Shown here piece by piece: positions 6,679 to 51,328 of a DNA stretch of 64,000 bases (position 1 is the stretch's first letter; each line of letters begins with the position of its first letter). The notes under the pieces were generated by a model that worked only from the letters and a program-made list of their open reading frames with translations, was not told the DNA's origin and made no database searches. The position numbers and the translations under genes were made by a program. Source of the stretch: Banduia mediterranea. Its GTDB lineage: Bacteria; Pseudomonadota; Gammaproteobacteria; Nevskiales; Nevskiaceae. The stretch covers positions 1-64,000 of the forward strand of contig NZ_JAVRIC010000005.1 in NCBI RefSeq assembly GCF_031846245.1, given 5' to 3'.

Positions 6679-7062
6679 GTGCGCCAGCACAAACTGGCAA
6701 GTGATAGTTGGTGAAAGACCGATACAGGAAAGGAGTAGCGAACCGTCTTGTCCCCGAGTCATGCGTTGGTCATCGTGAGGTGGGCGACGAAGCGTTGACA
6801 GGGGACACCGGCAGGCCAGCCATGGAGCCGCGAAATTTTCAATTCGGGATGCCGACGCCGTTCCCCAAGGCGGAAGGCCACACACAGCGCGGGGCAACAC
6901 GCGAGCCGCGCTGTGATCCGGCGCGGTCGGAGAGACCCTGAGCACGCCGGGAAGTCACTTGCACAGGAGCTGGGAGGTCTCAACGGAGCCCGAGGGTAGT
7001 GAGTCGGGCGTGGCGGGCAAGGTCAGTATCGCGGGGCAATTGCCCGAGAAAGCGGCATCGGG
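6679..7062 (+). mobile_element. 5' remnant of a group II intron
   Basis: The stretch begins GTGCGCC, the conserved 5' end of group II introns, and continues with blocks typical of domain I (TTGGTGAAAGACC, CAGGAA, CGAGTCATGCG) and the later GAGCTGGGAGGTCTC and AGCCCGAGGGTAGTGAGTCGGGC blocks that come just before the maturase gene. A frame then opens that reads RSWEVSTEPEGSESGVAGK, resembling maturase N-termini. The reverse transcriptase and domains V and VI are absent; similarity ends by about 7060, against the next gene's terminator. It is thus a non-mobile fragment. Assignment is by recalled motifs and needs a covariance search. Confidence 0.6.
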
Positions 7063-12793: not shown

Positions 12794-12907
12794 GAGGCTC
12801 CTTGCTCTATTGGAATATATGGAATCGTCTCAAGAGCTTGCCCAAGCAAGAAAAGGGCCACGCCCGAGCCCTGTTCGGCGCCGGAGTCGCGCGCTACAGT
12901 AGGCGTT

Positions 12908-14932
<2,025 letters not shown>

Positions 14933-23206: not shown

Positions 23207-25867
23207 TCAGATGGGTGCGAACAGCTCTTCCAGATCGTCGGGCGCAAAGCTGACGGCGCGGCTGCTGCCGCCGCCTTCGAGCACGGCCTGCGCCAGCGCC
23301 GCCTTGTGCACCTGCATCGCCTGGATTTTTTCCTCGACGGTGCCGGCGCAGATCAGCTTGTAGACGAACACCGGCTTGGTCTGGCCGATACGGTGTGCAC
23401 GGTCGCTGGCCTGCTGCTCGACCGCCGGATTCCACCAGGGGTCGTAGTGGATCACGGTGTCGGCGGCCGTCAGATTGAGGCCGACACCGCCGGCCTTGAG
23501 GCTGATCAGGAACACCGGCGTGTCGCCGTTCTGGAAGCGGTCGACCAGCGCACCGCGGTTCTGGGTGCCACCGGTGAGCATCAGATAGGCGATGCCGCGT
23601 GCACGCAGCGCGGCCGCGATCAGATCGAGCATGCCGGTGAACTGCGAGAACACCAGCACGCGGCGATCTTCGGCGATCAGTTCGTCCAGCAGTTCCAACA
23701 GCAGTTCGAGTTTGGCCGAAGCGGTGATGCCGCGCGCGCCGTCGAGCTTGAGCAGGCGCGGGTCGCAGCAGACCTGGCGCAGCTTGAGCAAGGCGTCGAT
23801 CACCACGATGCCGGACTGCGACAGGCCACGCTGCGCCAAGGCCGCCTGCACGCGGCTGTGCTGGGCCAGGCGCAGCGATTCGTAGAGTTCGCGCTGGCGG
23901 CCTTCAAGCTCGACGCTGCGCAGGATTTCAGTGCGCGGCGGCAGTTCCGGCGCCACGTCTTCCTTGCGGCGGCGCAGGATCAGCGGTGCGATGCGCCGGT
24001 TCAGGCGCTGCTGTCGCGCCACGTCGCCCTGCTTTTCGATCGGTGCGCGATACAGGGTGGTGAACAGGCGCTCGTCGCCGAGCAGGCCGGGTTCGACGGC
24101 ATCGACCTGCGCCCACAGTTCGCCAAGGTGGTTTTCCAGCGGCGTGCCGGTCACCGCGAGGCGTCGCGTTGCGCGCAGTTCACGTACGGTCTGTGCGGCC
24201 TGGGTGCGCGCGTTCTTGATCGACTGCGCCTCGTCGAGCACCAGCAGCCCGAAGTCGTGCTCGGCGAGGCGGCGCCGGTCACGTGCCAGCAGTGGATAGG
24301 TGGTGATCACCAGGTCGTGCGTCGCAATCCGGCGGAACAGCTGCGCGCGCTGCGTGCCGTGCAGGATCAGCAGCTTGAGCAGCGGCGCGAAGCGCCGCGC
24401 CTCGCGATACCAGTTGCTGATCAGGCTGGTCGGCACCACCACCAGCACCGGTTTGCGCAGACGGCCGCTGGCGCGTTCGGTCCAGATGTGGGCGAGCACC
24501 TGCACGGTCTTGCCGAGGCCCATGTCGTCGGCGAGGATGCCGCCGAGCCCGGCGTCGGCGAGAAAGCCGAGCCAGGCGAGCCCTTGCTGCTGGTAGGGGC
24601 GAAGTTCGGCTTCGAAGCCCGGCGCGGGCTGCATCGGCTCGCGCCGCGTTTCGAGCCCGTGCAGACGCTGTCTCAGGGTTTCCCCACCGCTCCAGTTCAG
24701 TGGCAGCTCGTCGAGGATCGCGGCCTGCGGTAGCCGCAGTTGCAGCCGCTCCTGTTCGTCGTCCGGATCGCGGCCGCCGACGTCGACAGGCCGCGCCAGC
24801 CATTCGAGCAGGGGTTCGATCAGGCCACGCAGCCGCAGCAGCGGCAACGGCACGTGGCGGCGCCCGTCGATGGTGGCCAGCCACACCGCGTCCGGCGCCT
24901 CGTTCGGCAGCGGTTCATGCGGAAAGTCCGGATCGGCGAGTACCTGACGCAGGATCGGCAGCAGGTCCAGGCGCTGATCGCCCACGTCGATGCCGAGCGA
25001 GACATCGAACCAGGTGCCGTCGCGGTCACGCACGTCGACGTGCCACTGATCCGGCGCCTGCAGCAACTCGACCGGGAAGTCGTCTTCGAATTCGAGCGTA
25101 AAGGCGGTGGCCAGACGCGGCAGCAGATTGGCGAGATGCGACGGCGAGGCCGGGCGGCCTTCGCCGCGTTCGAGGACGTAGTCGGCGGCCAGAAAGCGTG
25201 CGGCCTCAGCATCGTCGAGGTACAGGCCGACCACTTGATCGGCCGGCACCAGCCCGAAGGTCAGCAGGCGATCGCGGGCATCACCTTCCAGCGCACGCAT
25301 ACGTTCGATCCGCAGCGGCCGGTCCTCATGTGTGAATCGGGTCCAGGCGCGGCCGTCCGGGGGCACGCGGTGGCCGTCATAGTCGAAAGCCAGCCTGGCG
25401 ACGCCGATGGTTCGTTCGGCACCGCGCCGAGCCCGCGAGCGAAACGGCGCGCCGCGCAAGCGCAGCACCGGTTTGGGCGTGACGCTCACAGTGACAACCG
25501 AATCGCTGTTGGCGAGGACCGGTTCGCCGAGCATCAACGGCACCGGCCCGGTGTGGCGCTGGGTCGCCTCCAACAGGGCGGCCACGCAATGTGCGCATTG
25601 CGTGCCGTCCGGGCAGCTGCAACGCATATTGATTTCCAAGGCCGCCTGGGGATTGGGCCGCAGCTCGATGGAGCACTGATAGGACTGCGGTGCGCCATCA
25701 AGCACATTCGCCCGGATGCGGGTCTGACGGGGATGCGAATGGTCCATGTCGAAGTCGCTGACGCAGCGTCGCTGCGCGTACTCGCGGCCCTGCCGCAGCG
25801 CTTTGCGGTCAAACAACTGTGGCCAGTTGGATCCGGCCAGCAAGGCGATCAGACGTTCGTCCTCCAT
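23207..25867 (-). CDS. SNF2-family helicase with SWIM zinc finger
   Basis: 886 residues. A SWIM zinc finger lies at about residues 80-100 (CSCPDGTQCAHC, CxCx5CxxC-like). A long middle region precedes the SNF2 ATPase: Walker A DDMGLGKT, DEAQ box LLVLDEAQS, GTPLENHL, and the C-terminal helicase domain with VFSQF and ASDRAHRIGQ. Such proteins are ATP-driven DNA translocases thought to remodel protein-DNA complexes. MEDERLIALL at 25867 is the chosen start; the longer frame runs into the repeats upstream. The stop is 128 bases before the DeaD start. Confidence 0.92.
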   Translation of the reverse strand: MEDERLIALLAGSNWPQLFDRKALRQGREYAQRRCVSDFDMDHSHPRQTRIRANVLDGAPQSYQCSIELRPNPQAALEINMRCSCPDGTQCAHCVAALLEATQRHTGPVPLMLGEPVLANSDSVVTVSVTPKPVLRLRGAPFRSRARRGAERTIGVARLAFDYDGHRVPPDGRAWTRFTHEDRPLRIERMRALEGDARDRLLTFGLVPADQVVGLYLDDAEAARFLAADYVLERGEGRPASPSHLANLLPRLATAFTLEFEDDFPVELLQAPDQWHVDVRDRDGTWFDVSLGIDVGDQRLDLLPILRQVLADPDFPHEPLPNEAPDAVWLATIDGRRHVPLPLLRLRGLIEPLLEWLARPVDVGGRDPDDEQERLQLRLPQAAILDELPLNWSGGETLRQRLHGLETRREPMQPAPGFEAELRPYQQQGLAWLGFLADAGLGGILADDMGLGKTVQVLAHIWTERASGRLRKPVLVVVPTSLISNWYREARRFAPLLKLLILHGTQRAQLFRRIATHDLVITTYPLLARDRRRLAEHDFGLLVLDEAQSIKNARTQAAQTVRELRATRRLAVTGTPLENHLGELWAQVDAVEPGLLGDERLFTTLYRAPIEKQGDVARQQRLNRRIAPLILRRRKEDVAPELPPRTEILRSVELEGRQRELYESLRLAQHSRVQAALAQRGLSQSGIVVIDALLKLRQVCCDPRLLKLDGARGITASAKLELLLELLDELIAEDRRVLVFSQFTGMLDLIAAALRARGIAYLMLTGGTQNRGALVDRFQNGDTPVFLISLKAGGVGLNLTAADTVIHYDPWWNPAVEQQASDRAHRIGQTKPVFVYKLICAGTVEEKIQAMQVHKAALAQAVLEGGGSSRAVSFAPDDLEELFAPI

Positions 25868-25923: not shown

Positions 25924-26068
25924 CTAACGGCCATGCCGCCAAGCGGCGGAATGAATCTGCTGCGGCATGGCCGTTGCCCGCACCCACCGCTCGCATTCGC
26001 GAGCGGTCCCCCTCACCCGCAAGCGGGCGAGGGCAGCTCGGCATCACGCGGCGCGTGATTCACGCTAA
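25924..26068 (+). repeat. Four-hairpin interspersed repeat, copy A
   Basis: Four hairpins follow each other. Hairpin 1 has perfect 14-base arms AACGGCCATGCCGC and GCGGCATGGCCGTT (25926-25939, 25962-25975). Hairpin 2 has 9-base arms ACCGCTCGC/GCGAGCGGT (25986-26007). Hairpin 3 pairs CCCTC-CCCGC with GCGGG-GAGGG (26010-26033). Hairpin 4 pairs ATCACGC with GCGTGAT (26043-26059). The unit begins CTAACGG and ends CACGCTAA. It is non-coding and directly repeated 23 bases later. Confidence 0.9.
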
Positions 26069-26091
26069 GGTGGCTGAAAGTCTTTTCGATC

Positions 26092-26241
26092 CTAACGGCC
26101 ATGCCGCAAGCAGCACCCGTCACAATGAATTGCCTGCGGCATGGCCGTTGCCCTCACCCACCGCTCGCAGTCGCGAGCGGTCCCCTCACCCGCAAGTGGG
26201 CGAGGGTAGCCCGGCATCACACGGCGCGTGATTCACGCTAA
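26092..26241 (+). repeat. Four-hairpin interspersed repeat, copy B
   Basis: This is a second copy in the same orientation, again from CTAACGG to CACGCTAA. Hairpin 1 has 15-base perfect arms (AACGGCCATGCCGCA and its complement) but a different loop sequence, while hairpins 2-4 are nearly identical to copy A. Variation is concentrated in the loop of hairpin 1, so the stems rather than the primary sequence appear to be kept. It ends 21 bases before the CbiM-like gene. Confidence 0.9.
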
Positions 26242-28709: not shown

Positions 28710-28858
28710 CCGCACATCTTCTTTCATCCGGACTGTGACCGTCGGCTCTGGAGTCTCACCAGATCTGCTGACCCCGCAATGTGATTGCGGGCGCTCGCGG
28801 GCTTGCCACTAGGCTTTACCGCCGGTGGGGAATTTCGCCCCGCCCTGAAGACATACGT
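28710..28858 (-). promoter_or_regulatory. FMN riboswitch (RFN element) upstream of ribB
   Basis: On the minus strand the RFN blocks appear in order: CTTCAGGGCGGGGCGAAATTCC, CACCGGCGGTAA, AGCCCGCGAGC, CAGATCTGGTGAGACTCCAGAGCCGACGGT and CACAGTCCGGATGAAAGAAG. FMN binding should lower ribB expression. A further hairpin, GCACCGG-TTC-CCGGTGC at about 28681-28697, lies between the element and the start and has no T-run, so it may be part of a translational switch. Confidence 0.95.
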
Positions 28859-40231: not shown

Positions 40232-41332
40232 ATGAGCAGGATTGTCGCGTTTCTGGGCTTGGCTGGCCGCGGGTATGTTCCGCTATGGCTTGCTTTGCTG
40301 TCGTGCACGGCATGCGCCTACGCTCATGCCGCAGGCGCCGCCGAATGCGAGTCGCCCCGAAATTCGCGCCAGGTGCGTACCGCGGTCGAGGACGCGCGCT
40401 CGGCGATTGCCGAGGGGCGGGCCGCTTCCGCCATCGAGTCCCTGCTGGCACAAGCCGCGACGACGCGAAAGGATGCCGACCGCGCGACGCTGTTGCTGAC
40501 GGCCGGATACCTGCAGCTTCGGGGCCGGCAACTCGACGAAGCGAGCGACACGCTGGCGGCCGCGATGCAGGCTGCGTCACCGGACAGTGCGACGCGCCGG
40601 AGCGTGCGAGAGCTGATGGCGCAGGCGCTGTGGGAGCAGAAGCGGTATCAGCAGATCATCGAGCTGTACGAATCGACGAACGTCTGTGTCTTGGAGTCGC
40701 CGTGGACCGCCTCGTATTCGTACGGCGCCGCGCTGCTCAAGACGGGACAGTTGGACCGTGTCTACGAATTGGCGGCGGCAGTGATCGGGCCTATGCGCGA
40801 ATCGATGAACCTGCGCGATGATGAGCCGCTGTATGACGGTTTCGAATGGCAGGTGCTCGGCATGTCTGCGCAATGCGCGCTCCAGAAGCGCAGGCCCTGT
40901 CTGGAGAGTTGGCGCGATCTCTATCGGATACGCGACATGAGCGAAACGATATCGCCTGCGTTGAGCTTCATGCTTCCTCGTATCAAGGATTGGCCGGAAG
41001 CGCAGGCGATATTGCCCGGGACCATCACACTGGATGCGGGCGTCGCCAACGACGGGGACTGGGTTCCGGCCGCGATCATGCGTGACGCGGTGCCCGCCTA
41101 TCCGACTTCGGCGATCCGAAACGGTCAGGAGGGCTGGGTTTTGCTACGCATCGAGTTCGATCGGGACGGCAATGTTTCTGACGCCGAAGTGCTGAAATCT
41201 CGACCTGAGCGCGTCTTCGATGCCGCCGCGTTGTCGGCGGCAAAGCGGATCGTCATGATGCCCTCGCCGGACATTCCGGCCGGTGAAACGCGCGCGACGC
41301 GCAAGCTCTACCAATTCCGCATTGCGCGGTAG
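40232..41332 (+). CDS. TonB C-terminal domain protein
   Basis: 366 residues. A hydrophobic N-terminal segment (about 12-32) works as signal or anchor. A helical repeat-like region follows (about 45-240; TPR-like pattern, four Cys). The C-terminal TonB domain (about 275-366) contains VPAYPTSAIRNGQEGWVLLRIEFDRDG and the closing FDAAALSAAKR. There is no Pro-rich spacer and no ExbB/ExbD gene nearby, so it is unlikely to be a classical energy-transducing TonB. GGAGG 4 bases before the ATG overlaps the end of the upstream ATPase gene. Confidence 0.8.
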   Translation: MSRIVAFLGLAGRGYVPLWLALLSCTACAYAHAAGAAECESPRNSRQVRTAVEDARSAIAEGRAASAIESLLAQAATTRKDADRATLLLTAGYLQLRGRQLDEASDTLAAAMQAASPDSATRRSVRELMAQALWEQKRYQQIIELYESTNVCVLESPWTASYSYGAALLKTGQLDRVYELAAAVIGPMRESMNLRDDEPLYDGFEWQVLGMSAQCALQKRRPCLESWRDLYRIRDMSETISPALSFMLPRIKDWPEAQAILPGTITLDAGVANDGDWVPAAIMRDAVPAYPTSAIRNGQEGWVLLRIEFDRDGNVSDAEVLKSRPERVFDAAALSAAKRIVMMPSPDIPAGETRATRKLYQFRIAR

Positions 41333-51266: not shown

Positions 51267-51328
51267 CGAACGGGGCCATGCCGCAGCAGATTCATTCTGC
51301 AGGGTGCGCTTGTGGCATGGCCCTTGGA
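51267..51328 (-). repeat. Four-hairpin repeat, reduced copy D (hairpin 1 only)
   Basis: Read on the minus strand, this stretch matches hairpin 1 of the larger repeat: GGCCATGCC(A/G)CA arms and the ATTCATT/GGGTGC loop words also found in copy B. The arms are diverged (AACGGGGCCATGCCGCA against TGTGGCATGGCCCTT). Hairpins 2-4 are not recognisable. It lies between the convergent MBL hydrolase and Cys-repeat genes. Confidence 0.65.

Follow-up and report, generated by a model that had tools for sequence, protein, structure and literature searches.

GTAG REPs, BIMEs and REPINs are, in the portions of PMC3733652, PMC8266576, PMC3686654 and PMC2817692 drawn on here, palindromic, intergenic and multicopy sequences that often lie at the 3' ends of genes and have CT on the left, and the repeat described below is alike in these respects. 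Unlike the REPs mobilised by RAYTs, however, it is an element of 150 nt with four different hairpins and no conserved GTAG, and no cognate RAYT was found. Non-autonomous elements derived from IS200/IS605 go by the name PATE-like. Part of PMC2817692, together with general knowledge of these elements, gives them insertion at a fixed tetramer, a right-end tetramer of their own, hairpins near the ends and no duplication, as in the present case; the same portion describes IS200/IS605 members as having no terminal inverted repeats and no larger duplications. The present element differs from them in having four hairpins instead of two, no strand bias was seen and no parental IS was found. The TIR repeats of TIRYT, as far as the excerpted text of PMC3733652 goes, are likewise moderate-copy palindromic families, Y1-related and known in S. 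maltophilia. There, the TIRs flank the transposase gene, whereas here the relatives of a nearby Y1 gene have another TIR.

Small repeats of other hosts can also be likened to this one by description. Of these, bcr1 makes a 5-bp duplication, and RU-2 is ERIC. bcr1 is given in sections of PMC2267715 as a stem-loop repeat of 147-167 bp in the Bacillus cereus group, similar in size and likewise structured, and the title of a 2004 work cited there calls it mobile and group-specific. Enterobacterial RU-1 and RU-2, of 127 and 168 bp, appear in part of PMC2759123 as small mobile intergenic repeats. Many hairpin repeats of bacteria have no known mobilising enzyme; in this case, two close genomes show filled and empty sites to the single base. 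A search of the open-licence literature, with subscription journals mostly outside its scope, found no description of this repeat in the titles, abstracts and passages covered. In keeping with the earlier note, which had recognised no named family, there was no Rfam 15 match above the gathering score, the best sub-threshold match having an E-value of 0.14. The best reading is a non-autonomous, hairpin-ended mobile element of the REP/MITE kind.

In the window (the whole stretch of 64,000 nucleotides that was analysed, from Banduia mediterranea), unit 1 (25924-26068, 145 nt) and unit 2 (26092-26241, 150 nt) lie in direct orientation with a gap of 23 nt. The coordinates, lengths, spacing and orientation reported in the earlier note were all recovered, its shared ends CTAACGG and CACGCTAA are correct for both units, and its four hairpins per unit (H1 to H4) hold by folding, the least certain being H4 in unit 2. 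Folding as single-stranded DNA gave z-scores of -5.3 for unit 1 and -7.0 for unit 2, with none of 200 shuffles folding equally well in either case. The centroid structure of unit 1 contains all four hairpins, with H1 of 14 bp, H2 of 9 bp, H3 as an interrupted stem of 5+4 bp and H4 of 7 bp, and its minimum-energy fold has another pairing in place of H3. In unit 2, H1 (15 bp), H2 and H3 are present and a shifted 5-bp pairing stands in place of H4. Over 30 copies, 99.5% of the H4 cells are paired and four of its seven pairs are invariant. The H1 loop of unit 1 is a shortened one. The pair is located between two divergent predicted genes, a minus-strand SNF2-type helicase (Pfam) with a likely start near 25867 and an ORF of 194 aa from 26263 with no Pfam match. 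The parts of the units and the other copies in the window are collected in Table 1.

Table 1. Parts and copies of the repeat in the window, with the evidence for each.
Feature	Position in window	Strand	Evidence
Left tetramer CTAA, unit 1; most likely target DNA	25924..25927	+	left-tetramer counts (38 copies), 15 empty sites
Unit 1 hairpin 1; stem of 14 bp, ATGAATC conserved in the loop	25926..25975	+	folding, sequence
Unit 1 hairpin 2, 9 bp	25986..26007	+	folding; cross-genus covariation
Unit 1 hairpin 3	26010..26033	+	centroid fold; double changes in 3 of 11 pairs between genera
Unit 1 hairpin 4, 7 bp	26043..26059	+	centroid fold
Right tetramer CTAA, unit 1; most likely belonging to the element itself	26065..26068	+	right tetramers unmatched to left (38 copies)
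23-nt spacer, ordinary chromosomal DNA	26069..26091	+	found in G001:C43 without unit 2
Unit 2, complete, CTAA...CTAA	26092..26241	+	folding; G001 site empty
Another full-length copy, diverged ends GCAA...CAAA	44086..44236	+	164.1 bits, covariance model
Lone hairpin 1, no clear ends	51273..51323	-	43.8 bits, covariance model

The host genome (G000) was found to carry a dispersed family. A blastn search gave 42 matches (40 of 123 candidates scored), and a covariance model built on 30 copies, 28 from the host and two from the sole congener compared (G001), gave 93 at E<=0.01 (150 of 3824 candidates scored), a few of these being the opposite strand of a copy already counted. At least 138 bits, spanning the whole model, were reached by 31 of the 93, so that the three full copies of the earlier note belong to a set with many members. 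The remainder includes a shorter type with fused H2 and H3, about 125 nt long (L086, L089, L092, L094 and L096 among others), truncations at one end, inner deletions and lone copies of hairpin 1 (60-61 nt in the five examined). In one copy (L119, G000:C27:48882-49064), a long CT microsatellite has grown in hairpin 3.

When 58 genomes of the bacterial family were searched with the model, 21 had a match at E<=1e-4. Strong matches were confined to the host and G001, each of which had at least 52 matches in all, and the best elsewhere among the 58 reached 52.6 bits. The count for G001 is probably too low, many copies being at contig ends. Twelve of its contigs start in or near a copy (C2, C6, C7, C19, C32, C36, C43, C47, C58, C61, C66 and C71), and the repeat therefore probably breaks assemblies. 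Neither unit 1 nor two exact patterns gave a match that would indicate phage, plasmid or viral carriage.

End tetramers were compared in the 38 host copies judged readable, leaving aside eight with damaged ends and the lone hairpins. On the left, CTAA was found 24 times, CTGA nine, TTAA and CCAA twice each and ATAA once; on the right, CTAA and TTAA were found 13 times each, TCAA five and TTGA four, along with three singletons. T occupies the first position in two left ends against 24 right ends (Fisher P 9e-8), and left and right are identical in 8 of 38 copies, with 8.9 expected when the right ends are shuffled among copies. Keeping all 46 copies gave the same picture, with first-position T in 3 left against 28 right ends (P 3e-8) and identity in 8 copies against 9.5 expected. 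Since the two tetramers of a copy match no more often than by chance, there is no ordinary target-site duplication; most simply, the element brings the right tetramer with it, and the left one comes from the target.

Sites without the element were then available from G001, whose shared stretches are roughly 90-98% identical to the host. Three queries of 18-20 kb, covering nine copies, gave three empty sites (unit 2, L003 and L030), and a query made of joined flanks, for 37 copies, matched through the junction in twelve cases. In all, unit 2 and 14 other host copies have an element-free counterpart. The others among the 37 had a one-sided match or none, or their G001 site was filled or rearranged; at L029, G001 carries a shorter derivative and not an empty site. 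The unit 2 site reads GATC-CTAA-ATTCGCG in G001 and GATC-CTAA-[unit]-CTAA-ATTCGCG in the host. The earlier note had allowed that the pair was recently copied; with the unit 2 site empty in G001 and possessing its own CTAA, the window units look like separate insertions and not like a tandem duplication. From the empty sites, the element is recently mobile, and its absence in G001 could in part be due to loss.

The 15 empty sites carry CTAA in ten cases and CTGA, ATAA, CTAC and CCAA in one each; the tetramer of L004 is uncertain (read as CAAA), G001 being 9 nt shorter there, and small length differences adjoin the site at L006, L007, L014, L019 and L092. The empty tetramer equals the left one of the filled site in 10 of 15 and the right one in 5 of 15, counting three that match both; three match neither. 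A trait of the IS200/IS605 type, insertion on the 3' side of a fixed tetramer with no duplication of the target, is thus seen with a fit at 10 of 15 sites. L023 and L027, with CTGA on the left, CTAA on the right and CTAA when empty, call for the opposite assignment (only the right tetramer matches), and neither assignment fits L003, L004 and L089. Owing to these two opposed and three non-fitting sites, the cut may be CTAA^ or C^TAA. Copies with fused H2/H3 (L089, L092 and L096) likewise have empty sites, so the full H2-H3 is not needed for mobility here. None of five lone copies of hairpin 1 had a G001 match through the junction that would mark it as a mobile unit in itself.

On this evidence, the repeat is probably, with some reserve, mobile and non-autonomous, an element of about 146 nt (CGG...YTAA) that lies 3' of a CTRA tetramer, has its own YTAA-type right end and makes no target duplication. 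It would enter directly 3' of a CTAA-type tetramer in a single orientation relative to it. A single-strand HuH transposase, probably Y1/IS200-like, would mobilise it in trans, and may recognise the end hairpins H1 and H4 and cut beside the tetramers. The insertion pattern points to a HuH enzyme, and the element works like a non-autonomous element of the HuH type, for which no parent IS with its ends was found. Orientation and GC skew were unrelated (11 of 23 regions, P 0.75; 37 of 64 flanks), so lagging-strand insertion is not supported, in draft contigs whose skew is weak.

With its YTAA, each right end would become a further target, and this would account for the units arranged head to tail. 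At 11 of 15 inspected loci in G001, picked for neighbouring or contig-end matches, such units are joined via a single tetramer. In addition, at the G001 orthologue of G000:C6:38234, a type-B unit that the host lacks directly follows the TTAA of the shared copy, so the right end can serve as the next target. CTAA occurs at 188 sites in 520 kb (both strands, element ends counted) against 4100 for CTGA, and 68 of the 188 fall inside genes predicted with a simple codon-usage gene finder. Since CTAA is rare inside the genes of this GC-rich genome, target choice and selection would together keep the copies intergenic.

The enzyme was sought among Y1 transposases, of which there are six matches in the host, some of them fragments, and four in G001. 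One alternative, considered unlikely, is that hairpins 1 and 4 are the REPs of a REP/REPIN system moved by a chromosomal RAYT, P0001 (G000:C6:22613-23314). A lone hairpin 1 of 60 nt (CTAA...TCAC) starts 10 nt past the stop codon of this gene, and CT opens the left end in 33 of 38 copies, in line with the statement, in the part of PMC8266576 used here, that TnpAREP cuts at CT beside the hairpin. Right ends, however, start with TT about as often as with CT. In G001 and G027, AAAAAGGGGACAGATTTATTT-type inverted repeats, and not hairpin 1, flank the relatives of P0001 (90% and 81% identical, respectively), which resemble the TIR-flanked tyrosine transposases described in passages of PMC3733652. 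Given that these relatives carry another repeat, the lone hairpin 1 was treated as chance or capture, and ownership by P0001, at which it had hinted, was dropped.

The other nine Y1 loci of the host and G001 have no copy within flanks of roughly 1.5 kb, so that a cognate RAYT with the repeat at its flank comes down to a lone hairpin 1 next to a single one of the ten Y1 loci, at one flank only, and a Y1 gene bounded by the ends of the element was not found in these two draft genomes. The link with a transposase such as a Y1/RAYT gene, for which the earlier note had suggested looking, is accordingly weak. Of its composite REP or MITE-like reading, the dispersed, many-copy, MITE/REP-like part stood and a GTAG-tagged REP did not, GTAG or GTGG (GTRG, at most 8 nt before H4) being present in only 10 of 30 copies and CTAA preceding hairpin 1. 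At L050:1465-2239 there is a Y1 gene with a lone hairpin 1 standing where the right terminal repeat is expected.

That the element is a classical MITE of the DDE type, duplicating CTAA as a 4-bp target, is improbable and already largely refuted. Empty sites with one tetramer and filled sites with two are what such a MITE would give, as are the 8 of 38 copies with CTAA at both ends, but the left and right tetramers differ in composition and are uncorrelated within copies. The inverted terminal match covers only about 6 nt (YTAACG/CGTTAR).

The host might instead be keeping the repeat for its structure in RNA or DNA, as transcript-end hairpins, mRNA stabiliser or attenuator, with its spread being secondary, although this is quite improbable. 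Gene surroundings were determined for 64 copies with flanks, including truncated and lone ones. No copy is contained in a predicted gene; overlaps with a predicted gene end amount to 26-45 nt in five copies and to 14 nt in one. Convergent gene pairs hold 26 of the 64 copies against 76 of 455 neighbouring gene pairs, a placement that suits transcript-end hairpins; selection against other sites can explain part of it. The left tetramer serves as stop codon for the left-hand gene in 9 of the 64, and the right tetramer contains the stop codon of a minus-strand gene in 12. Against a host-kept structure, no terminator-like site was found within either window unit, the window pair lies between divergent genes, close relatives differ in presence at the 15 loci and fused-H2/H3 copies persist.

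Sequence variation also bears on a structural role. The earlier note had taken stems that stay paired as a sign of selection. Within the genus this failed, since the 30 copies contain one double change against 1.3 in shuffles, and 94.7% of stem cells are paired against 94.6%. Stem columns are less variable than the other columns (0.083 vs 0.175, P 0.004), which speaks for a kept structure. The compensatory changes that the note had proposed to look for were absent at this level and appeared between genera. There, weak matches (L127, L130, L133 and others) resemble the repeat in layout, with ends like TAA-GGCCATG and TTCACGTTAA retained in some; within G001, a type B subfamily has the same layout and ends with different stems.

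Weak matches were aligned (alignment A2), using 33 of the 38 examined and one row from the window; L142 had no recognisable core, and L131, L137, L305 and L309 were too different to be included. Changes on both sides of a pair were found in 38 cells, against 10.7 in shuffles, which lose relatedness (none of 500 reached the value), and at most 10 in slid controls, which keep it. They involve five of nine H2 pairs and three of 11 H3 pairs, a covariation that would also be expected of a host-kept structure. RNAalifold gave an alternative in which H2 pairs with H3, and the structure of the covariance model has this pairing and no H2 hairpin pairs; it therefore cannot have selected for the H2 covariation in A2. 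In the favoured mobile-element account, the structures of H2 and H3 are conserved from genus to genus, perhaps because they form hairpins, in DNA or RNA, where genes end.

An integron-cassette-like element with a tyrosine recombinase as mover is highly implausible: CTAAC...GTTAG of hairpin 1 resembles attC core sites, some of the lone 60-61 nt copies end CTAAC...GTTAR and head-to-tail units have one common junction, but the expected G before TT (C after the tetramer on the plus strand) is present, by eye, in 3 of 15 empty sites.

Beyond the genus, G015, G019 and G036 (L301, L294 and L312) have a like H2-H3 core with quite different outer hairpins, of the GAGACCGCCG and GGCGGTCTGCGACCGCC type, and G032 (L134) has a like core with yet another pair of outer hairpins. 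With a like core between unrelated outer hairpins, it is the layout and not the sequence that is common. A tentative extension to the whole family, for which the confidence is low, is that these are gene-less modular elements of a fixed four-hairpin layout, with an H2-H3 core of conserved structure and outer hairpins that can be exchanged (two or more unrelated sets in different genera). An as yet unrecognised enzyme would insert them in single-stranded form next to a tetramer, and their own ends would become new targets and produce head-to-tail arrays. The filled and empty sites of the close genome pair, the defined target, and a layout whose structure persists as the sequence changes between genera make the question of the mobiliser directly testable in laboratory hosts.

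The unit 1 locus differs from that of unit 2 in the comparison with G001. The interval between TTCGCTAA and GCGCTAAGGTGG measures 798 bp in G001, and the host has unit 1 there instead. These 798 bp (G001:C43, L145) lie between two CTAA sites and contain, by reading of the sequence, a short-chain dehydrogenase-like gene. Two insertions followed by recombination between them would delete this gene and leave unit 1. The window may show a cost of the element, a dehydrogenase-like gene of a relative being replaced by one copy.

Elsewhere in the window, about 970 bp (about 40263-41236) have no counterpart in G001, appearing as a gap between matches. Rfam group II intron domains (group-II-D1D4-6, 170 bits) were found at 6714-6936 on the plus strand, and two ordinary riboswitches were also identified with Rfam, a TPP riboswitch at 12904-13001 (plus strand) and an FMN riboswitch at 28712-28856 (minus strand).
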